A stretch of 64,000 nucleotides of DNA from a virus. This document shows, one piece after another, positions 3,449-21,312 of the stretch. Where the stretch lies: positions 1-64,000 of IMG/VR virus record IMGVR_UViG_3300028569_000027; one strand, written 5' to 3'. The notes beneath the pieces were generated by a model that worked only from the letters and a program-made list of their open reading frames with translations, did no database searches and was not told the origin of the DNA. How positions within the stretch are numbered: position 1 is the stretch's first letter; the number at the start of each line of letters is the position of its first letter. The translations under genes were made by a program, and so were the position numbers.

Positions 3449-3634
3449 ATGGTTAAGAAAGTTAAAGTATTTGAAATTTATGTGTCAACTCCAAATGGTG
3501 GTTCTGAAAGGTATAATATGTCTATGATAACCGATTACACGGCCGCGTGCAAGTTACGCGATTACGTTGTTGGTAAGGTTGGTCACCCGAATGTGTATAT
3601 TATGCCAAGTACGGCTAATTGGGTAGTCTCATAA
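3449..3634 (+). CDS. hypothetical protein, 61 aa
   Basis: Family not recognised. Small mixed alpha/beta-looking protein (VKVFEIYVSTPNGGSERYNM...). Its own promoter precedes it and another promoter follows before the AAA+ gene. Confidence 0.7.
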   Translation: MVKKVKVFEIYVSTPNGGSERYNMSMITDYTAACKLRDYVVGKVGHPNVYIMPSTANWVVS

Positions 3635-3638
3635 TTAC

Positions 3639-3669
3639 TTGGTAGTGTCAATCGAATTAATTATCTTTA
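3639..3669 (+). promoter_or_regulatory. host-type promoter of the AAA+ gene
   Basis: TTG 3639-3641, 20 nt, TATCTTTA 3662-3669, then AGTATAA and an A-rich leader to the ATG at 3697. Confidence 0.7.
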
Positions 3670-3696
3670 AGTATAAACCTAATAAAAATTAAAAAA

Positions 3697-4884
3697 ATGA
3701 ATAGAATCGGAATGGTCGTCCAAGAGACGAGATTTGTAAAAGTGTATTGTAACGGCAAGGATATCTCTAAGGAGGTTCCGCAGGCCATAAGATTAGCCGC
3801 TCGTGATGCGGGTAAGGATGTTGAATGTATTGCGGGTGAGTGGGTAGTGTCCGGACAGGCTGCTACTGGTATTGTGTCTAAGCCTGATGTAGAGCTTGAA
3901 GAAGCTACTATGGTTAAGCTCAAAGCTACCGAGTCGGTCAATTCTACCGATGGTTCTATTGTGAATATTACGAACTTTGTGCATAGAGAAGCTGCCGGCT
4001 TAAAACCCTCCCACTTCTTTATCTCGGACCTTAAGTGGAAGTATTTAATAAGAGCCGTGATGCGTGGGCGCAATGTGCTTATGACTGGGCCCGCTGGGAC
4101 TGGTAAAACTATGGCAGTGAAACACGTGGTGAACGCTTTAAATCGCCCTCACTTTTACTTTAATATGGGTGCTACTCAGGACCCGAGAACGACATTGATT
4201 GGTAATACCCACTTCAAGAAAGATTCGGGAACGTATTTCGCTCAGAGTTTATTTGTGACCGCTATTCAGACTCCAAATGCTGTGATATTGCTGGATGAGA
4301 TTAGTCGTGCTCACCCCGAAGCTGGTAACTTATTAATGCCGGTTCTGGATATGAACCAGCGTTATTTGCGTCTAGATGAAAAAGACGATAGTCCGACTAT
4401 CCCAGTTGCTGAAGGTGTTTCTTTCATAGGAACTGCCAATATTGGAAATGAATATACCGGAACCAGAACTATGGACCGTGCATTGAAGGACCGTTTCTCA
4501 ACCACTATTGAAATGGAAGAACTTAACTCTTCCGAGGAGTTGCGTCTGTTGAAATTATTGTACCCTAAGGGTGATAAGCAAGTATTAGGCGCGATTGCCG
4601 ATATTGCCGGTCATACCCGTGAGAATATCAAATCTGAGAATCCTAAGGTTGGAACCACTATATCAACCCGTATGGCAGTTGAAATGGGTTCACTTAGTGT
4701 CGACGGGTTTAGTTTAGCTGAAATTGCTGATGTAACCATTTACCCATTCTATTCAGAAGAAGGTGGGGTTGACTCTGAGAGAGTTTATATGAAGCAATTG
4801 GTTCAGAAATATATCAAAACCACTGATAGCAAGCTATTCGGTGATGGTGACACTGTGGCTCCAACCACTGCTAGCCCATTCTAA
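3697..4884 (+). CDS. MoxR/CobS-type AAA+ ATPase
   Basis: Residues 110-340 form an AAA+ module. Walker A is GPAGTGKT (131-138), Walker B ILLDEIS (197-203), sensor 1 GTANIG (245-250) and an arginine-finger region RALKDRF (261-267). MoxR/CobS ATPases act as chaperone-like remodellers together with VWA-domain partners. The next gene encodes exactly such a VWA protein, so the pair probably forms one complex. The N-terminal 100 residues are a separate unassigned domain. It has its own promoter and a strong terminator (4897-4925) before the partner gene. The substrate is unknown; cobalt chelation is unlikely since no cobalamin genes are seen. Confidence 0.88.
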   Translation: MNRIGMVVQETRFVKVYCNGKDISKEVPQAIRLAARDAGKDVECIAGEWVVSGQAATGIVSKPDVELEEATMVKLKATESVNSTDGSIVNITNFVHREAAGLKPSHFFISDLKWKYLIRAVMRGRNVLMTGPAGTGKTMAVKHVVNALNRPHFYFNMGATQDPRTTLIGNTHFKKDSGTYFAQSLFVTAIQTPNAVILLDEISRAHPEAGNLLMPVLDMNQRYLRLDEKDDSPTIPVAEGVSFIGTANIGNEYTGTRTMDRALKDRFSTTIEMEELNSSEELRLLKLLYPKGDKQVLGAIADIAGHTRENIKSENPKVGTTISTRMAVEMGSLSVDGFSLAEIADVTIYPFYSEEGGVDSERVYMKQLVQKYIKTTDSKLFGDGDTVAPTTASPF

Positions 4885-14788: not shown

Positions 14789-14862
14789 GGGCTATTAGCT
14801 TAAATCGGTAATAGCGCTCGGTTGAAGCCCGAGAGATACAGACTCAAGGCCTGTATAGCCCG
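14789..14862 (+). tRNA. tRNA-Phe (GAA)
   Basis: Acceptor GGGCTAT/ATAGCCC, D-stem GCT/AGC, anticodon stem CTCGG/CCGAG with loop TTGAAGC. The T-arm is weak (one A-C mismatch, loop CTCAAGG). CCA not encoded. First gene of the array. Confidence 0.85.
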
Positions 14863-14900
14863 CTGAATTGTAATGTTATTTGACATATTGTAAGAAAAAT

Positions 14901-14989
14901 TGTGCGGTGCACCGAGTGGCCGATGGTAGCTGACTGTTAATCAGCCGGACGTAGTTTGTCCCGCGTGAGTTCGAATCTCACTCGCACAT
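14901..14989 (+). tRNA. tRNA with Asn anticodon (GTT) on a Tyr/Ser-like scaffold
   Basis: Anticodon stem GCTGA/TCAGC, loop CTGTTAA, so the anticodon reads GTT. However, it has a long class II variable arm (GGAC/GTCC stem) and a D-arm ACC-GAGTGGCCGAT-GGT like bacterial tRNA-Tyr. T-arm GTGAG-TTCGAAT-CTCAC. Acceptor TGTGCGG/TCGCACA contains one G-T pair and the spacing to the D-stem is one base longer than normal. No other Asn tRNA is present in the array. Confidence 0.75.
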
Positions 14990-14994
14990 CAATT

Positions 14995-15063
14995 GGGGTA
15001 GTTCCAGGGAGTTGTAGTGACTGTAAATCATAAACACGTGGCGTTCAAGTCGCCCCTATCCCT
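14995..15063 (+). tRNA. tRNA-Tyr (GTA), short variable loop
   Basis: Acceptor GGGGTAG/CTATCCC, anticodon stem GTGA/TCAT with loop CTGTAAA (anticodon GTA), T-arm GGCG-TTCAAGT-CGCC. The D-arm is degenerate and the long variable arm expected of bacterial tRNA-Tyr is missing; total only 69 nt. Confidence 0.7.
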
Positions 15064-15075
15064 CAATAATAAAAT

Positions 15076-15159
15076 GTCAAGTTCGTCTAGTTGGTAGGAC
15101 ACCACACTTTCACTGTGGAATGCGTAAGCTGCGGACGGGTTCGAGCCCCGTACTTGATA
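15076..15159 (+). tRNA. tRNA-Glu (TTC), long variable region
   Basis: Acceptor GTCAAGT/ACTTGAT, D-stem GTC/GAC, anticodon stem CCACA/TGTGG with loop CTTTCAC, T-arm ACGGG-TTCGAGC-CCCGT. The variable region is about 16 nt, unusual for Glu. Confidence 0.85.
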
Positions 15160-15165
15160 CTAAAT

Positions 15166-15238
15166 GGTGCTGCAGAATATGGAGTATTTTGCCTTCCTGT
15201 CACGAAGGAGATTGAGGGTTCGAGTCCCTTCAGTACCG
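15166..15238 (+). tRNA. tRNA-Asp (GTC)
   Basis: Acceptor GGTGCTG/CAGTACC, anticodon stem CCTTC/GAAGG with loop CTGTCAC, T-arm GAGGG-TTCGAGT-CCCTT, discriminator G as usual for Asp. Confidence 0.88.
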
Positions 15239-15260
15239 CCAAAGTAACCTTGCTAAAATG

Positions 15261-15320
15261 TCTTAGCACCTCTTAGGCAGCAATGCTCGTAAGTCGCAAG
15301 GGACGTGAAAGGTGCTAAGA
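15261..15320 (+). ncRNA. structured RNA element A between tRNAs
   Basis: Perfect 10-bp closing stem TCTTAGCACC (15261-15270) with GGTGCTAAGA (15311-15320). Inside are two small hairpins, AGC-AAT-GCT and GTC-GCAAGG-GAC. Looks cloverleaf-sized but has no T-arm and no readable anticodon. Function unknown; could be a decayed tRNA or an independent RNA processed with the array. Confidence 0.5.
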
Positions 15321-15329
15321 AACTTATTT

Positions 15330-15407
15330 GCTCTTGTACCCGTATATTGGACATAGGAACGTGCTTTTAACACGTCGAGAATGTGGGTTCGATTCCCGCC
15401 GGGAGCA
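15330..15407 (+). tRNA. tRNA-Lys (TTT)
   Basis: Acceptor GCTCTTG/CGGGAGC, anticodon stem ACGTG/CACGT with loop CTTTTAA, T-arm GTGGG-TTCGATT-CCCGC, discriminator A. Confidence 0.87.
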
Positions 15408-15443
15408 CAGGGATGATTGCGAGTTCGAGTCTCGTTGAATTGT
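15408..15443 (+). pseudogene. tRNA 3' half lying upstream of its 5' half
   Basis: Contains a possible anticodon-stem strand AGGGA (409-413 of 15 kb), T-arm GCGAG-TTCGAGT-CTCGT and acceptor 3' strand TGAATTG (15436-15442). No 5' half precedes it; the matching 5' half is downstream at 15475-15511. Either a tandem-duplication remnant or a circularly permuted tRNA gene. Confidence 0.55.
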
Positions 15444-15458
15444 AATATCCGGATATTA
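15443..15458. repeat. 16-bp perfect palindrome
   Basis: TAATATCCGGATATTA, located between the two tRNA halves. It would form an 8-bp stem with no loop in RNA, or a symmetric protein site in DNA. Confidence 0.7.
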
Positions 15459-15474
15459 CTGATGTTAAATCATT

Positions 15475-15511
15475 AGATTCATAGCTTAATTTGGTAAAGC
15501 TCCCGTTTTTT
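15475..15511 (+). pseudogene. tRNA 5' half lying downstream of its 3' half
   Basis: AGATTCA (15475-15481), TA, D-arm GCT-TAATTTGGTAA-AGC, then TCCCG and six T up to the start of tRNA-Pro. AGATTCA pairs at six of seven positions with TGAATTG of the half at 15408-15443. TCCCG pairs at four of five with AGGGA there. Confidence 0.55.
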
Positions 15512-15584
15512 CTTGGTGTAGGAAAGTTGGTAATCCGCGATATTTGGGATATCGAGACCGTGGGTTCGAGCCCCGCCACTGAGA
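15512..15584 (+). tRNA. tRNA-Pro (TGG)
   Basis: Acceptor CTTGGTG/CACTGAG, D-stem GGA/TCC, anticodon stem CGATA/TATCG with loop TTTGGGA, T-arm GTGGG-TTCGAGC-CCCGC, discriminator A. Confidence 0.88.
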
Positions 15585-15628
15585 CGCTGGTTTTAGCATT
15601 TTATACTTTAACGGAAAAATGCAAATTT

Positions 15629-15700
15629 GCCTCAGTAGTGTAATGGCTAACATTCCCGCTTCCAAACCGGGCGATTAGGGTTCGAGTCCTTACTGGGGTG
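15629..15700 (+). tRNA. tRNA-Trp (CCA)
   Basis: Acceptor GCCTCAG/CTGGGGT, D-arm GTG-TAATGGCTAA-CAT, anticodon loop TTCCAAA on a CCCG/CGGG stem, T-arm TAGGG-TTCGAGT-CCTTA, discriminator G as usual for Trp. Confidence 0.87.
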
Positions 15701-15711
15701 CTAATAAATAA

Positions 15712-15788
15712 TGGTGCGTAACCACCCTGCCTGATACGCAGGAGTAAGGTAATGGTTGTAAATGTGGGTTCAAGTCCCATCGCACCGA
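15712..15788 (+). tRNA. tRNA-Ile (GAT) with displaced D-loop
   Basis: Acceptor TGGTGCG/CGCACCG (one T-G pair), TA, then only ACCAC before the anticodon arm CCTGC-CTGATAC-GCAGG. The 21 nt between anticodon arm and T-arm contain the D-loop-like GGTAATGG. ACC (15721-15723) can pair with GGT (15748-15750), enclosing the anticodon arm. T-arm GTGGG-TTCAAGT-CCCAT is normal. Same layout as 16375-16451 and 17822-17895. Confidence 0.75.
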
Positions 15789-15804
15789 CTAAAAATTAAA
15801 TTGT

Positions 15805-15966
15805 ATGAAAGCGTACGGAGTAAGAAAAAAAGATGACGATTGCTGTCCCGGACATTCCAAATATGGAGTAGCCAGTGCAGAATGTGGTAGCCAACGCCGA
15901 GGTAAGCGTTCTAAAAATAAGGATAAAGCACGTAAAGCTAAAATGCGACAGTTAACTATAAATTAA
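15805..15966 (+). CDS. small basic Cys-containing protein, 53 aa
   Basis: MKAYGVRKKDDDCCPGHSKYG... ends in a strongly basic tail (GKRSKNKDKARKAK). The CC...H...C pattern may bind a metal, and the tail suggests RNA or DNA contact. It is encoded inside the tRNA array between Ile and Ala. Family not recognised. Confidence 0.65.
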   Translation: MKAYGVRKKDDDCCPGHSKYGVASAECGSQRRGKRSKNKDKARKAKMRQLTIN

Positions 15967-15971
15967 ATATC

Positions 15972-16133
15972 ATGGCACAAATAGGAAACAAAATTAATTC
16001 GTACCTAAATGGTGAATGGGCAAAGCATGGTCGACCTTTTGGTAAGAAACTTGCAGCACGTGTTAGGCGTATGATGGGTAAGGACGAAATTATTAAACAA
16101 TTAAAAGAAATAAAGGAGTATGGCAAAGATTGA
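15972..16133 (+). CDS. small basic protein, 53 aa
   Basis: MAQIGNKINSYLNGEWAKHG... with a basic centre (KKLAARVRRMMGKD) and helical C-terminus. Starts 5 nt after the previous stop and overlaps the next start by 14 nt, forming a three-gene island in the tRNA array. Unassigned. Confidence 0.65.
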   Translation: MAQIGNKINSYLNGEWAKHGRPFGKKLAARVRRMMGKDEIIKQLKEIKEYGKD

Positions 16134-16290
16134 CAAAAAGAAAGATAGGATTCGTGAACAAATCAGAATTCTAGGTGATGAAATGAATTCAGCGTTAACT
16201 AAAAAGACATCGAATGTTAAGGAAATAAATGTTCCGGAGCATACTAGAAAAATTTCTAAGTTAATTGATGAACTTAAATCACTAAAATAA
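16120..16290 (+). CDS. small helical basic protein, 56 aa
   Basis: MAKIDKKKDRIREQIRILGDEMNS... is a charged helical sequence, probably coiled coil. It overlaps the previous gene and ends 5 nt before tRNA-Ala, so it is co-transcribed with the tRNAs. Unassigned. Confidence 0.65.
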   Translation: MAKIDKKKDRIREQIRILGDEMNSALTKKTSNVKEINVPEHTRKISKLIDELKSLK

Positions 16291-16295
16291 TAAAT

Positions 16296-16368
16296 GGGGT
16301 ACTAGTGAAACTGGCTATCATAGTAGATTTGCATTCTACTGTTTCGGATTCGAATTCCGAGTGCTCCA
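16296..16368 (+). tRNA. tRNA-Ala (TGC)
   Basis: Acceptor GGGGTAC/GTGCTCC, anticodon stem GTAGA/TCTAC with loop TTTGCAT, T-arm TCGGA-TTCGAAT-TCCGA, discriminator A. The G3-U70 pair characteristic of tRNA-Ala is present (third acceptor pair G-T). Confidence 0.9.
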
Positions 16369-16374
16369 CTGTTT

Positions 16375-16451
16375 GCTCCCATATACCCTCAAGCTTATAT
16401 CTTGTAGAAAGGTTAATTGGTCACATAAGAGTTCGAATCTCTTTGGGAGTA
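16375..16451 (+). tRNA. tRNA-Ile (TAT) with displaced D-loop
   Basis: Acceptor GCTCCCA/TGGGAGT, TA, five bases TACCC, then anticodon hairpin CAAG-CTTATAT-CTTG (anticodon TAT). A 21-nt segment AGAAAGGTTAATTGGTCACAT with a D-loop-like TTAATTGG precedes the T-arm AAGAG-TTCGAAT-CTCTT. ACC (16385-16387) is complementary to GGT (16411-16413). Same unusual order as the Ile (GAT) and Arg (TCG) genes. Confidence 0.7.
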
Positions 16452-16459
16452 CATAATAT

Positions 16460-16532
16460 GCTTTTGTAGCTTAATTGGCAAAGCTCCCGGCTCTTAACCG
16501 GAGGAGTGAAAGTTCGAGTCTTTCCAGAAGCA
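16460..16532 (+). tRNA. tRNA-Lys (CTT)
   Basis: Acceptor GCTTTTG/CAGAAGC, D-arm GCTTAATTGGCAAAGC, anticodon loop CTCTTAA on CCGG/CCGG, T-arm GAAAG-TTCGAGT-CTTTC. Second Lys gene. Confidence 0.87.
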
Positions 16533-16541
16533 CTAAAATAT

Positions 16542-16614
16542 GGTTCCGTAGCATAGCGGCAAATGCGGTGGTTTTACATACCACATATCCAGAGTTCGAG
16601 TCTCTGCGGAACTA
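16542..16614 (+). tRNA. tRNA-Val (TAC)
   Basis: Acceptor GGTTCCG/CGGAACT, D-stem GCA/TGC, anticodon stem GTGGT/ACCAC with loop TTTACAT, T-arm CAGAG-TTCGAGT-CTCTG, discriminator A. Confidence 0.9.
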
Positions 16615-16619
16615 CAATT

Positions 16620-16692
16620 GCAATTATAGCTCAGCTGGTAGAGCGTCTCGTTGCCAACGAGAAGGTCGTGCGTTCAAACCGCATTAATTGCT
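16620..16692 (+). tRNA. tRNA-Gly (GCC)
   Basis: Acceptor GCAATTA/TAATTGC, D-arm GCTCAGCTGGTAGAGC, anticodon stem TCTCG/CGAGA with loop TTGCCAA, T-arm GTGCG-TTCAAAC-CGCAT, discriminator T as usual for Gly. Confidence 0.92.
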
Positions 16693-16697
16693 CAATT

Positions 16698-16772
16698 GCG
16701 TCATTCGCCTAATTGGCTATGGCACTACGCTTCCAACGTAGAATAGTATCGGTTCGAGTCCGATATGGCGCA
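16698..16772 (+). tRNA. tRNA-Gly (TCC)
   Basis: Acceptor GCGTCAT/ATGGCGC, D-stem GCC/GGC, anticodon stem CTACG/CGTAG with loop CTTCCAA, T-arm ATCGG-TTCGAGT-CCGAT. Confidence 0.9.
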
Positions 16773-16799
16773 CTAAAGGGTTGGTTGATGACCGAAAGC

Positions 16800-16820
16800 A
16801 ATGCTAATCACATTGCTGAC
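16800..16820 (+). ncRNA. lone anticodon-arm-like hairpin
   Basis: AGCAATG, 7-nt loop CTAATCA, CATTGCT: a perfect 7-bp stem with a loop the size of an anticodon loop, placed in the spacer before tRNA-Thr with no acceptor or T-arm around it. Possibly a tRNA remnant or processing signal. Confidence 0.4.
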
Positions 16821-16833
16821 TCTTGTGAAATTT

Positions 16834-16913
16834 GCCTTTGTGGCTCAGCGGCGACAGCACCTGTTTTGTAAACAGGGACACAAACATCGGGGGTTCGATT
16901 CCCTCCAAAGGCT
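16834..16913 (+). tRNA. tRNA-Thr (TGT)
   Basis: Acceptor GCCTTTG/CAAAGGC, D-stem GCT/AGC, anticodon stem CCTGT/ACAGG with loop TTTGTAA, T-arm GGGGG-TTCGATT-CCCTC. Variable region of about 12 nt is longer than usual. Confidence 0.9.
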
Positions 16914-16922
16914 CATTAATAT

Positions 16923-16995
16923 ACCGATGTAGTTCAGCCGGAAGAACACTCGTTTCATACACGAAAGGTCGCAGATTCGAATACTGCCATCGGTA
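16923..16995 (+). tRNA. tRNA with CAT anticodon (Met or Ile2)
   Basis: Acceptor ACCGATG/CATCGGT, D-arm GTTC-AGCCGGAA-GAAC, anticodon loop TTCATAC on TCGT/ACGA. A normal first pair (A-T) argues against an initiator. Whether C34 is lysidinylated to read AUA cannot be told, although an Ile (TAT) gene already covers AUA. Confidence 0.88.
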
Positions 16996-17007
16996 CTAAT
17001 TTTAAAT

Positions 17008-17094
17008 TGCATTATCGCCTAACTGGCAGGGCACGGGGCTTTGAATCCCGCAGTCGAAAGACTCTCGGTCTAGGTTCGAATCCTAGTGGTGCAA
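17008..17094 (+). tRNA. tRNA-Gln (TTG), extra variable-arm hairpin
   Basis: Acceptor TGCATTA/TGGTGCA, D-stem GCC/GGC, anticodon stem CGGGG/TCCCG with loop CTTTGAA, T-arm CTAGG-TTCGAAT-CCTAG. The 19-nt variable region holds a hairpin AGTC-GAAA-GACT, a class II feature not expected for Gln. Confidence 0.87.
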
Positions 17095-17139
17095 CATAGT
17101 TTTCGGTTTCGTTTCATGCTTCTATGAAAACGAACATTT

Positions 17140-17229
17140 GGAAAAGTCAACCGAAATTGGTATCGGCCCCGTCTTGAAAACGGGTCATCGCTGCAAGGTG
17201 GTGTGAGGGTTCGAGTCCGTCCTTTTCCG
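17140..17229 (+). tRNA. tRNA-Ser (TGA)
   Basis: Acceptor GGAAAAG/CTTTTCC, D-stem CCGA/TCGG, anticodon stem CCCGT/ACGGG with loop CTTGAAA, long class II variable arm, T-arm GAGGG-TTCGAGT-CCGTC, discriminator G. Confidence 0.9.
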
Positions 17230-17235
17230 CAACAT

Positions 17236-17310
17236 GGAGTATGTAGATTTAATGGTAGAACGCTGGGTTGTGAACCTTGTAGTTGGCAGTTCGACTCTGC
17301 TCATACTCCC
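17236..17310 (+). tRNA. tRNA-His (GTG)
   Basis: Acceptor GGAGTAT/ATACTCC with discriminator C as expected for His, anticodon loop TTGTGAA, T-arm GCAG-core TTCGACT. The anticodon stem has a mismatch and the base before G1 is T, so the extra G(-1) would have to be added after transcription. Confidence 0.82.
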
Positions 17311-17316
17311 CATAAT

Positions 17317-17390
17317 GCTCCGGTAATCCAACGGAAGAGATATCAGACTTAAACCCTGTACAGGTGTGGGTTCGAATCCCACTCGGAGCA
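17317..17390 (+). tRNA. tRNA-Leu (TAA), short variable loop
   Basis: Acceptor GCTCCGG/TCGGAGC, D-stem ATC/GAT, anticodon loop CTTAAAC on a weak stem (CAG/CTG core), T-arm GTGGG-TTCGAAT-CCCAC. It lacks the long variable arm of normal bacterial tRNA-Leu, as does the Leu (TAG) gene, to which it is clearly related. Confidence 0.78.
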
Positions 17391-17417
17391 CGAAGTAAGG
17401 AAGTAGTTCCCCACGTG

Positions 17418-17478
17418 GCCCCGCGTTGGATGAATGAAAATTAGTCCCTTATGAAGTATTGTAAAATGCAAGCGGGGC
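17418..17478 (+). ncRNA. structured RNA element B between tRNAs
   Basis: GCCCCGC (17418-17424) pairs perfectly with GCGGGGC (17472-17478), enclosing 47 AT-rich nt. No T-arm or anticodon can be recognised. Comparable in size and position to elements A and C. Confidence 0.45.
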
Positions 17479-17483
17479 GCTTT

Positions 17484-17571
17484 GGAAAGGTAAGCATAAT
17501 GGTACTGCCGCGCATTGCTAATGCGTTCATCGTCGTAAGATGGTGTGAGAGTTCGAGTCTCTTCCTTTCCG
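17484..17571 (+). tRNA. tRNA-Ser (GCT)
   Basis: Acceptor GGAAAGG/CCTTTCC, D-arm GCA-TAATGGTAC-TGC, anticodon stem GCGCA/TGCGT with loop TTGCTAA, class II variable arm, T-arm GAGAG-TTCGAGT-CTCTT, discriminator G. Confidence 0.9.
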
Positions 17572-17574
17572 CTA

Positions 17575-17650
17575 TGAGAGAATATGGGGTTAAAGTACCC
17601 ATGCGATAGCCTGGCCAGCATTCGTTCCGTTCTAAGTTAAGGCGCTCTCA
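17575..17650 (+). ncRNA. structured RNA element C between tRNAs
   Basis: TGAGAG (17575-17580) with CTCTCA (17645-17650) forms the closing stem. Inside are a hairpin ATGGG-loop-CCCAT and a palindrome CTGGCCAG. tRNA-sized but without T-arm or recognisable anticodon. Confidence 0.45.
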
Positions 17651-17655
17651 GTTAT

Positions 17656-17729
17656 GCACCTGTAATTCAATTGGACAGAAGAACAGTTTTCTAAACTGTA
17701 TGCTGTGGGTTCGAGTCCCGCCAGGTGCT
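17656..17729 (+). tRNA. tRNA-Arg (TCT)
   Basis: Acceptor GCACCTG/CAGGTGC, D-stem TTC/GAA, anticodon stem ACAGT/ACTGT with loop TTTCTAA, T-arm GTGGG-TTCGAGT-CCCGC. Confidence 0.9.
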
Positions 17730-17740
17730 CAAAATAATAT

Positions 17741-17814
17741 GGTCCAGTATCCCAACGGAAGAGGAAATAGTTTTAGAAACTATACAGGTGTGGGTTCGAA
17801 TCCCACTTGGACTA
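17741..17814 (+). tRNA. tRNA-Leu (TAG), short variable loop
   Basis: Acceptor GGTCCAG/TTGGACT, D-stem TCC/GGA, anticodon stem ATAGT/ACTAT with loop TTTAGAA, T-arm GTGGG-TTCGAAT-CCCAC. Variable loop only about 6 nt (ACAGGT) instead of the class II arm. Confidence 0.85.
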
Positions 17815-17821
17815 CCAAAAT

Positions 17822-17895
17822 ATTCCCGTAATGGCGCTGTCTTCGAAACAGTATGTGCATAATGGATAATGTGAGTTCGAGTCTCACCGGGGATA
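17822..17895 (+). tRNA. tRNA-Arg (TCG) with displaced D-loop
   Basis: Acceptor ATTCCCG/CGGGGAT, TA, five bases ATGGC, then anticodon arm GCTGT-CTTCGAA-ACAGT. An 18-nt segment with D-loop-like CATAATGG precedes the T-arm GTGAG-TTCGAGT-CTCAC. ATG (17831-17833) is complementary to CAT (17858-17860). Total length (74 nt) is normal, so the D-arm-sized and variable-loop-sized segments have effectively swapped places. Confidence 0.75.
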
Positions 17896-17901
17896 CTAAA
17901 T

Positions 17902-17974
17902 GCTTCTGTAGGCTAATTGGATAAACCACTACATTACGGATGTTGGATTTCGAGTTCGAGTCTCGATGGAAGCG
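17902..17974 (+). tRNA. tRNA-Arg (ACG)
   Basis: Acceptor GCTTCTG/TGGAAGC, anticodon stem CTACA/TGTTG (one mismatch) with loop TTACGGA, T-arm TCGAG-TTCGAGT-CTCGA, discriminator G. Confidence 0.87.
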
Positions 17975-17991
17975 CTGACAAAATAATATAA

Positions 17992-18231
17992 ATGAAAACT
18001 ACAACAGAACGAGATAGATTATTTGCTAAAACTCTTGCTAATTTAATACTGGGACCTATGTCTGAATATTGTAACAAGAATAAAATTCCATTTGATGAAC
18101 TTCCTCTTATGCCCGGACAAGGAGCTGAGGTAGTTGAATTAATTATTGACAATAAAATATCGTTTAGTAATGCTAAAATTTTATTAAATATATTATATGA
18201 ACAAAATTTAGCAAGAACGACAAAAAATTAA
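17992..18231 (+). CDS. stand-alone GatB/YqeY-type tRNA-binding domain, 79 aa
   Basis: The whole protein resembles the C-terminal helical domain shared by GatB and YqeY. LANLILGPMSEYC matches the AANWI..EL helix, and AEVVELIIDNKISFSNAKILL matches the conserved 'LIELI..G.IS...AK' segment. In GatB this domain holds Glu-tRNA(Gln) for transamidation. Full GatB is about 480 aa, so only the tRNA-contacting part is present. Its place between tRNA-Arg and tRNA-Cys supports a role in handling the phage tRNAs. Confidence 0.65.
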   Translation: MKTTTERDRLFAKTLANLILGPMSEYCNKNKIPFDELPLMPGQGAEVVELIIDNKISFSNAKILLNILYEQNLARTTKN

Positions 18232-18234
18232 TAC

Positions 18235-18310
18235 GGCTAGGTACCTAATGTTGGTAAAGGGATATGTCTGCAAAACATAGTTAACACCAGTTCGATTCTG
18301 GTTCTATCCT
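18235..18310 (+). tRNA. tRNA-Cys (GCA)
   Basis: Acceptor GGCTAGG/TCT-ATCC with one C-T mismatch, D-stem CCT/AGG, anticodon stem TATGT/ACATA with loop CTGCAAA, T-arm ACCAG-TTCGATT-CTGGT, discriminator T as required for Cys. Last tRNA of the array. Confidence 0.87.
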
Positions 18311-18316
18311 CGAATA

Positions 18317-19102: not shown

Positions 19103-19675
19103 ATGAAGCATAATTTTCCAGATAAAATAATTTTCTTAGATGTAGACGGTGTAATTTGTGTTGGTCACGACCATTACAGACATTTTAACCAAATATGTTT
19201 GGAGCTACTTCAAGAAATAATTGACGCTACGGGCGCAAAAATTGTTGTATCGTCGTCGTGGCGTGACTCTGATTCTGTTCGAATGAAGGCTAACTTCTTA
19301 GAGCATGGGTTTACTGAGAAATTATGGGGAGAAGTAATTGATATTACAATTCGTGGATATTCACATATTATTAAAGGGTCTAAACTACCTATTGTTAGGG
19401 GTAACGAGATTAAAGCATGGGTAGATACAAAAATGATTTACCCGTGGCACTCAGACCCTTCTCTAGATAAACAATATCAAATTCTTAGAGAGGATGGTAG
19501 TTTTAAAATAATGAATTCTAATAAATTAGGAGTTGATTTTAGCTACGTAATATTAGATGATGACGCTGATATGCTATATGAACAACGAAATCATTTTATT
19601 CAAACAGGTGCTATGTTCGGGTTATCAATATATGACCGGGATAACGCAATAAAAATATTGAATTATGGAAAGTAA
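19103..19675 (+). CDS. HAD-family hydrolase (HAD_SAK-like), 190 aa
   Basis: Motif I FLDVDGV (nucleophile and acid/base Asp near residues 12-14), motif II SSSWR, and motif IV YVILDDDADM give a HAD phosphatase. The SSSWR, RGNEI and ILDDDADM wording matches the HAD domain found in 'Swiss army knife' RNA-repair proteins and related phage enzymes. Likely removes phosphate from a nucleotide or polynucleotide end. Overlaps the next gene by 11 nt. Confidence 0.8.
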   Translation: MKHNFPDKIIFLDVDGVICVGHDHYRHFNQICLELLQEIIDATGAKIVVSSSWRDSDSVRMKANFLEHGFTEKLWGEVIDITIRGYSHIIKGSKLPIVRGNEIKAWVDTKMIYPWHSDPSLDKQYQILREDGSFKIMNSNKLGVDFSYVILDDDADMLYEQRNHFIQTGAMFGLSIYDRDNAIKILNYGK

Positions 19676-20911: not shown

Positions 20912-21272
20912 GGGGGCGACTGGAATAGATTGGCTAAGAATGGTAAACAATTAGGTGCGTGATTGATACAGTACACGTTAAAAATTGGTATTAACAATAA
21001 ACGTAGAAAAATCTACATTTACATTCGAAGATGCTATGGCATTTGTATCGAGTGAAGAGTTAGTGTTGGCTTAGTAACAGAACACACTCCCATCTATGGG
21101 TCAAATAGAAGTTTTACTTGTTTTCACAAAACGAGTTGGTGGACCGTTGATTGTAACCCAATCAGCCCTAATTATTTTGGAGAGCTAATAAGATTAAACT
21201 CTAACCTAAACCTATAAATAAATTGTTTGCGAGTTGTAGAGCAAGACCGGGGTTCGAAACCCCGCGCCTCCA
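20912..21272 (+). ncRNA. ssrA: tmRNA (transfer-messenger RNA)
   Basis: The 361-nt gene has a complete tRNA-like end. Acceptor GGGGGCG (20912-20918) pairs with CGCCTCC (21265-21271), the discriminator is A, and the T-arm is CGGGG-TTCGAAA-CCCCG. The D-like segment GACTGGAATAGATTGGC matches the conserved tmRNA phrase GACTGGATTCGAC. CCA is not encoded. An internal frame ends TTG GCT TAG TAA (two stops, 21072-21077). A likely tag from GCA at 21039 reads AFVSSEELVLA; a longer tag is possible because the frame is open from 20982. Length matches bacterial tmRNA (about 360 nt). A T tract follows at 21275-21290. Confidence 0.88.
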
Positions 21273-21312
21273 CAGTTTTTATTTTTTTTTTAACCAAACC
21301 AAATACAAGTAC

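Follow-up and report, generated by a model that had tools for sequence, protein, structure and literature searches.

Phage tRNA genes for arginine and isoleucine with a predicted non-circular permutation of the chain

What kind of RNA is encoded by a tRNA gene in which the anticodon arm comes before the D-loop? This question is raised by three genes in a 64,000-nucleotide (nt) stretch of viral DNA, here called the window, which comprises positions 1 to 64,000 of the 80-kb IMG/VR virus record IMGVR_UViG_3300028569_000027. The three genes are part of a cluster of otherwise canonical tRNA genes on the plus strand (Table 1). An earlier note, made from the sequence alone, described them as Ile(GAT), Ile(TAT) and Arg(TCG) genes with anticodon arm and D-loop in swapped order, and suggested that the D-stem encloses the anticodon arm. 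The acceptor-D-anticodon-variable-T order has been treated as universal apart from the loss of arms, and annotation programs assume the same order. Based on the comparative analysis reported here, we suggest that the three genes very probably encode functional tRNAs with a non-circularly permuted chain.

The swapped layout is present in the sequence at exactly the coordinates that had been noted. Each gene has a stem of 7 base pairs (bp) for the acceptor, the dinucleotide TA, 5 nt, an anticodon arm whose 7-nt loop has U33, a D part, a 5-bp T-arm and the 3' strand of the acceptor. The stem of the anticodon arm has 5, 4 and 5 bp in Ile(GAT), Ile(TAT) and Arg(TCG), respectively, and the stretch between anticodon arm and T-arm, which contains AATGG or AATTGG, has 21, 21 and 18 nt. 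The complementary triplets on which the nested stem had been proposed (ACC/GGT, ACC/GGT and ATG/CAT) had been quoted correctly. ARAGORN missed two of the genes and misread the third as 15694-15789, and this misreading is one of the 23 tRNAs in its list. The Rfam tRNA model gave 29.9 bits for the gene at 15712, and the other two genes were absent among the matches listed.

The same layout is found in other phages. Two unrelated huge-phage records, LR745206 and LR756502, had been retrieved through the tRNA region, and scanning them for the structure gave genes with the D triplets CCC/GGG, CAG/CTG and CGA/TCG. Pattern scans of IMG/VR and 85,000 cellular genomes, filtered on the acceptor, anticodon and T stems and without regard to D-pairing, gave 215 unique candidates. 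A subset of 199 distinct genes in 142 loci reads Arg or Ile, has U8A9 and has at least one D pair; several counts below are based on this set and should be read in view of that selection. Because the words GTARYGG and GTTCRANTC were required by the scans, A14, G18G19 and the T-loop are not independent evidence; U8, U33 and a purine at 37 were also set by the scan, and a 7/5 acceptor/T split was assumed by the scanner. By contrast, D-pairing, positions 9, 20, 21 and 73 and CCA were not imposed, nor was position 48 in all but two pattern scans, both of which were excluded from the count of Levitt pairs.

Full pairing of the D triplets is seen in 156 of the 215 candidates, whereas 42 would be expected and none of 1000 shuffles exceeded 57. 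Because the relatives pair at the D triplet far above shuffles, chance is excluded as an explanation for the layout. Given only an alignment of 58 homologues, RNAalifold returned the nested D-stem unprompted (-30.12 kcal/mol, with double changes in 19 of 20 pairs), in agreement with what had been proposed from three genes. For the whole structure in these 58 sequences, 97.4% of cells are paired and the covariation is 1.020, compared with 0.249 after shuffling and 0.12-0.184 with slid partners; for the D-stem and the 15-48 pair alone, the values are 0.783, 0.211 and at most 0.153. No mismatch is seen at the middle D pair (alignment columns 13-39), which is GC in 33, AU in 10, CG in 10 and UA in 5 sequences, and the covariation that had been guessed from the third triplet is thereby borne out. 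The acceptor and T-stem are each paired in 99% of cells, which is in part imposed by the search patterns. In all members, the 5' acceptor strand comes first and the 3' acceptor strand last. Only 5-6 nt lie between position 9 and the anticodon arm, with no D-arm hairpin there, and the D-stem spans the anticodon arm; the acceptor/T split of the consensus structure is 7/5, not 8/4 or 9/3.

A covariance model (R1) was built on the swapped structure from 58 diverse members. It gives 60-83 bits for most members tested and usually less than 37 bits for canonical tRNAs; a few matches at 37-43 bits do not resemble members. The scores of the three window genes (Table 1) compare with at most 31.7 bits for all canonical window tRNAs, but are not independent because these genes are among the 58 sequences used to build the model.

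In canonical numbering, the first D strand represents positions 22-25 and is followed by 26, the anticodon arm, 44-47, the second D strand (10-13), the D-loop, 48 and the T-arm, and the D-loop word in the members reads T-A14-R15-N-G18-G19-N20. If the mapping is correct, the purine that follows A14 should form a Levitt pair with the last base ahead of the T-stem. Such a pair is present in 141 of the 145 loci whose pattern left position 48 free (A-U in 103, G-C in 38 and other combinations in 4). Moreover, the base before position 48, equivalent to A21, is A in 190 of the 199 genes, 200 of 201 Arg/Ile candidates have A9, and the 44-47 linker in the 199 genes most often has 4 nt, which is the canonical length. 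Because the 15-48 pair covaries, the A21 equivalent is conserved and the linker has canonical length, we judge the core contacts to be kept. Thus, sequence comparison supports with high confidence that the tRNA chain is permuted non-circularly: the canonical segment 10-21 follows position 47, and the tertiary core is predicted to be kept. This reading goes beyond swapped arms in that the Levitt pair, A21, A9 and the Arg/Ile identity bases point to a permuted connectivity around a canonical core.

In this model, the canonical connectivity, in which position 9 leads to 10-13, 14-21 (the D-loop), 22-25, 26, the anticodon arm, 44-47, 48 and the T-arm, would be replaced by one in which position 9 leads to 22-25, 26, the anticodon arm, 44-47, 10-13, 14-21 (the D-loop), 48 and the T-arm. 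The polarity of the D/anticodon stack would be unchanged, so that the same L-shape is possible, with the D-stem formed by 10-12 and 23-25, the Levitt pair 15-48, the U8-A14 contact and G18G19 facing the T-loop. The permutation would require three short jumps, i.e. from 9 to 22/23, from 44-47 to 10 and from 21 to 48. The residues at these jumps already touch in canonical tRNA, through the contacts 9-12-23, 10-25-45 and 15-48/8-14-21.

Are such RNAs charged, and with what? Once misread canonical tRNAs are excluded, the credible members read Arg (UCU, UCG, ACG, CCU, GCG) or Ile (GAU, UAU, CAU) with one exception, and the CAU members would be lysidine-type Ile2. In a scan without anticodon constraint, all 20 model matches above 43 bits were Arg or Ile, with the loops read by eye. 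The sole exception (L021:440-527) has the anticodon UCA, which would read UGA, and carries A20 as in the Arg members; a UCG gene related to it lies at L146:8200. The UCA member was considered as a mark of a recoded phage, but this idea found no support: the standard code leaves the long reading frames in its neighbourhood open.

Position 20 separates the two isotypes. It is A in 139 of 141 permuted Arg genes and not A in 55 of 58 permuted Ile genes, where it is mostly U (Fisher 8e-43), and the canonical tRNAs of the same loci have the same split (A in 105 of 109 Arg, U in 42 of 48 Ile). A20 is the main bacterial determinant for arginyl-tRNA synthetase (ArgRS) and is said to be unique among tRNA families, while isoleucyl-tRNA synthetase (IleRS) has D20, the discriminator and the anticodon as determinants (PMC9976931). 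The discriminator is A in 53 of 53 permuted Ile genes and A, U or G in the permuted Arg genes. A37 is present in 197 of the 199 genes, and 76 of 142 Arg genes encode CCA. A canonical tRNA of the same anticodon is found in the same locus in 20 cases against 36 expected (none of 5000 permutations as low), a deficit that may partly reflect sampling, as the anticodon was used to fetch the loci. The tRNA set of the window is otherwise broad, but the only Ile tRNAs found in it are the permuted ones, in a phage that uses 77 Ile codons per 1000. Thus, the gene contents suggest that permuted genes tend to complete the canonical tRNA set of the phage. Because identity bases are kept, CCA is often encoded and gaps in the canonical set are filled, it is likely, with moderate to high confidence, that these tRNAs are charged with Arg or Ile and decode.

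We envision that RNase P would process the transcripts because acceptor and T-arm are intact, and that CCA would be completed where it is not encoded. Host ArgRS would then charge the Arg members via A20 and C35, and host IleRS the Ile members via A73, the anticodon and U20, allowing Arg and Ile codons to be decoded during infection. ArgRS and IleRS have in common that they probe position 20, in or close to the elbow, and this may hint at why only these two isotypes use the topology.

Several observations weigh against functional permuted tRNAs. The D pair at columns 14-37 is mismatched in 12 of the 58 members, and single-sequence free-energy folds do not reliably give the swapped D-stem, which has only 2-4 bp. 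The earlier note had named a canonical cloverleaf of better energy as a finding that would count against the layout; the minimum-energy folds of single sequences are not canonical, while the swapped form is not reliably obtained from them either. Also, U73, present in 51 of 142 Arg genes, lies outside the A/G73 of the Escherichia coli arginine set (PMC9976931), and encoded CCA is absent from about half of the Arg and nearly all of the Ile genes.

The genes could alternatively give rise to a tRNA-shaped RNA that keeps the tRNA core but does not decode, acting, e.g., as a decoy for tRNA-cleaving defence enzymes or by competing for ArgRS and IleRS. Such a role would account for a topology limited to two isotypes, canonical Arg or Ile tRNAs share the cluster in some phages, and phage tRNAs are known to counter tRNA-targeting defence, although there as working tRNA (PMC11555353). 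Nevertheless, the anticodon loops are normal (A37 as above; U33 imposed by the scan), CCA is frequently encoded, the anticodons tend to complement rather than duplicate the canonical set, and the window relies on permuted genes for all Ile tRNAs found, and we therefore regard a non-decoding role as improbable. Less probable still is a D-armless tRNA with a long variable region in which the complementary triplets are incidental. D-armless tRNAs occur in animal mitochondria and likewise pass from position 9 to the anticodon arm without a D-arm, and a helix of 2-4 bp is short enough to invite this reading. However, the permuted genes keep a covarying D-stem and a conserved D-loop elsewhere in the chain: the middle D pair takes four Watson-Crick forms without a mismatch, the signal is lost when the partner is slid, and conservation extends to the D-loop word, A21, N20 and the 15-48 pair.

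It is also highly unlikely that a precursor is cut and religated to a canonical cloverleaf, in the manner of circularly permuted or split tRNA genes. In circularly permuted tRNA genes, which share with the phage genes an unusual order of parts, the 3' and 5' halves are exchanged and circularisation restores a canonical tRNA; some tRNA genes are known to be rearranged and later repaired (reference 17 in PMC10085705), and a predicted RNA-repair HAD protein is encoded nearby (19103-19675). In the phage genes, by contrast, the acceptor ends are in their normal place and already opposed, and religation would need an internal segment to be moved rather than two halves to be exchanged; there is no leftover linker or spliceable intron, the 44-47 linker has canonical length, and the covarying pairs are those of the gene order itself. 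Finally, tRNA debris in the cluster (15408-15510) might suggest decayed pseudogenes, or assembly artefacts, but about 199 independent genes keep their stems and members are present in seven cultured phages, and we consider this reading refuted.

How do permuted tRNAs relate to known RNAs? With canonical elongator tRNAs (RF00005; Arg, Ile), they share the 7-bp acceptor, the T-arm with TTCRA, the anticodon arm, U8, A14, R15-Y48, G18G19 and A21, as well as A20 in Arg, U20 and A73 in Ile and the often encoded CCA; they differ in having 10-21 after the anticodon arm and a D-stem that closes around this arm. In allo-tRNAs, the 12-bp branch is split 8/4 or 9/3 instead of the 7/5 of the consensus structure, a split that our scanner also assumed. 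Non-circularly permuted hammerhead ribozymes also have fold blocks reordered along the chain with the three-dimensional arrangement kept, as covariation suggests here, but they are self-cleaving; only circular permutations had been known previously, and the tRNA case is not described there (PMC10085705). Bacterial Y RNA and the tRNA-like structure of turnip yellow mosaic virus can be superposed on tRNA only when the order of the chain is disregarded, and the latter has been scored as a non-circular permutation (PMC11472068). These mimics sit within larger RNAs, whereas the permuted phage genes are free-standing, and they have a plain acceptor stem and a complete anticodon arm. The literature searched contained no tRNA of this chain order, as the earlier note had surmised, although preprints and most subscription papers were outside the search and a prior report is possible. 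Thus, while natural non-circular permutation was described earlier, in the literature searched, for hammerhead ribozymes and viral tRNA mimics, a natural class with core contacts kept and the chain reordered would imply that the tRNA fold itself tolerates it.

Homologues with paired triplets, whose absence would have counted against the layout according to the earlier note, clearly exist, and they occur in many phages beyond the kin of the window phage. The portal-region protein of the window phage is closest to those of Microcystis phage Mel-JY01 and Flavobacterium immuto phages. Permuted genes are carried by the cultured Pseudomonas phages Bitten (at 2495-2571 of L448) and ventosus, Microbacterium phages Pumpernickel and Zooman, Mycobacterium phage Cosmo, Vibrio phage D260 and Streptomyces phage Mildred21. 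Among these, the gene is annotated only in Mildred21, as tRNA-OTHER. Permuted genes are rare in cellular genomes, with carriers making up 3 of 398 genomes from one order, and two cellular loci have phage genes nearby, a tape-measure gene at one and a gene for a Hoc-like phage protein at the other. Close relatives retrieved by protein (three loci, L004-L006) have canonical tRNAs only; a pattern with G15 and C48 returned mostly unrelated sequence, with one member by the swapped model in 100 of those loci; and E. coli phage ESCO41, a lead from the nearest BLAST match, was dropped as a carrier because it has no swapped-model match. Because ARAGORN makes no overlapping call at 185 of the 199 genes, phage tRNA inventories are incomplete, mostly for Arg and Ile. 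It can now be tested how ArgRS, IleRS, RNase P, modification enzymes and tRNA-cleaving defence read a differently connected D-arm.

Why would phages carry such tRNAs? As phage tRNAs counter tRNA-targeting defence (PMC11555353), escape from tRNA-cleaving defence is possible by analogy. We tentatively speculate, while considering it doubtful as a whole, that a phage-spread class of permuted tRNAs, with the L-fold, Arg/Ile charging and decoding kept, was selected to escape host enzymes that read canonical D-arm connectivity, such as tRNA-cleaving defence or modification enzymes. In this proposal, the class is established by covariation, charging and decoding are inferred, and the selective reason is speculation.

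Table 1. Coordinates of the tRNA cluster and of the predicted permuted tRNA genes in the window
Feature	Position	Strand	Basis or content
tRNA cluster, three permuted genes inside, same strand	14789..18311	+	22 canonical tRNAs (ARAGORN) and one Phe(GAA) (Rfam only)
Predicted chain-permuted tRNA-Ile(GAT), 77 nt including discriminator A73	15712..15788	+	R1 model 73.4 bits and structure
Ile(GAT) D-stem first strand ACC (canonical 22-24), partner 15748-15750	15721..15723	+	
Ile(GAT) anticodon arm CCTGC-CTGATAC-GCAGG, anticodon GAT	15726..15742	+	
Ile(GAT) D-stem second strand GGT, A14 A15 U16 G18 G19 U20, remaining D-loop to U48; Levitt A15-U48	15748..15763	+	
Predicted chain-permuted tRNA-Ile(TAT), 77 nt including discriminator A73	16375..16451	+	R1 model 60.8 bits and structure
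Ile(TAT) D-stem first strand ACC (positions 23-25), partner 16411-16413	16385..16387	+	
Ile(TAT) anticodon arm TCAAG-CTTATAT-CTTGT, anticodon TAT	16389..16405	+	
Ile(TAT) D-stem second strand GGT, U13 A14 A15 UU G18 G19 U20, remainder to U48	16411..16426	+	
Predicted chain-permuted tRNA-Arg(TCG), 74 nt including discriminator A73	17822..17895	+	R1 model 69.2 bits and structure
Arg(TCG) D-stem first strand ATG, partner CAT 17858-17860	17831..17833	+	
Arg(TCG) anticodon arm GCTGT-CTTCGAA-ACAGT, anticodon TCG	17836..17852	+	
Arg(TCG) D-stem second strand CAT, A14 A15 U G18 G19 A20 (arginine determinant), remainder to U48	17858..17870	+	

Some members and their neighbourhoods have further features. 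A diverged permuted Ile(GAT) copy with an apparently altered T-arm lies beside an Arg member (L002:13929-14007; 49.4 bits). Some members have about 10 extra nt between positions 20 and 48 (L015:13235, L139:7170, L149:8578), and one extended member has GCC-GAAA-GGC, resembling a small additional D-loop hairpin. In L021, frames that by eye are polynucleotide kinase-like (1073-2041) and T4-type RNA ligase-like (3618-4748) adjoin the permuted tRNA, and in Pumpernickel and Zooman (L449, L450) an RtcB-like ligase is encoded about 2 kb from it.

In the window, the tRNA-Phe(GAA) at 14789-14862 (loop TTGAAGC) is an Rfam match that ARAGORN missed. The pieces at 15408-15510 comprise a T-arm-like and a D-arm-like stretch and resemble decayed copies. 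Long-armed structured stretches lie between tRNA genes at 15261-15320 and 17418-17479, with z-scores near -2 and no Rfam gathering match. Just downstream of the cluster, 19103-19675 encodes a HAD-domain protein of RNA-repair type (HAD_SAK_2), and a phage-encoded transfer-messenger RNA (tmRNA) lies at 20912-21275 (Rfam, 54.7 bits).

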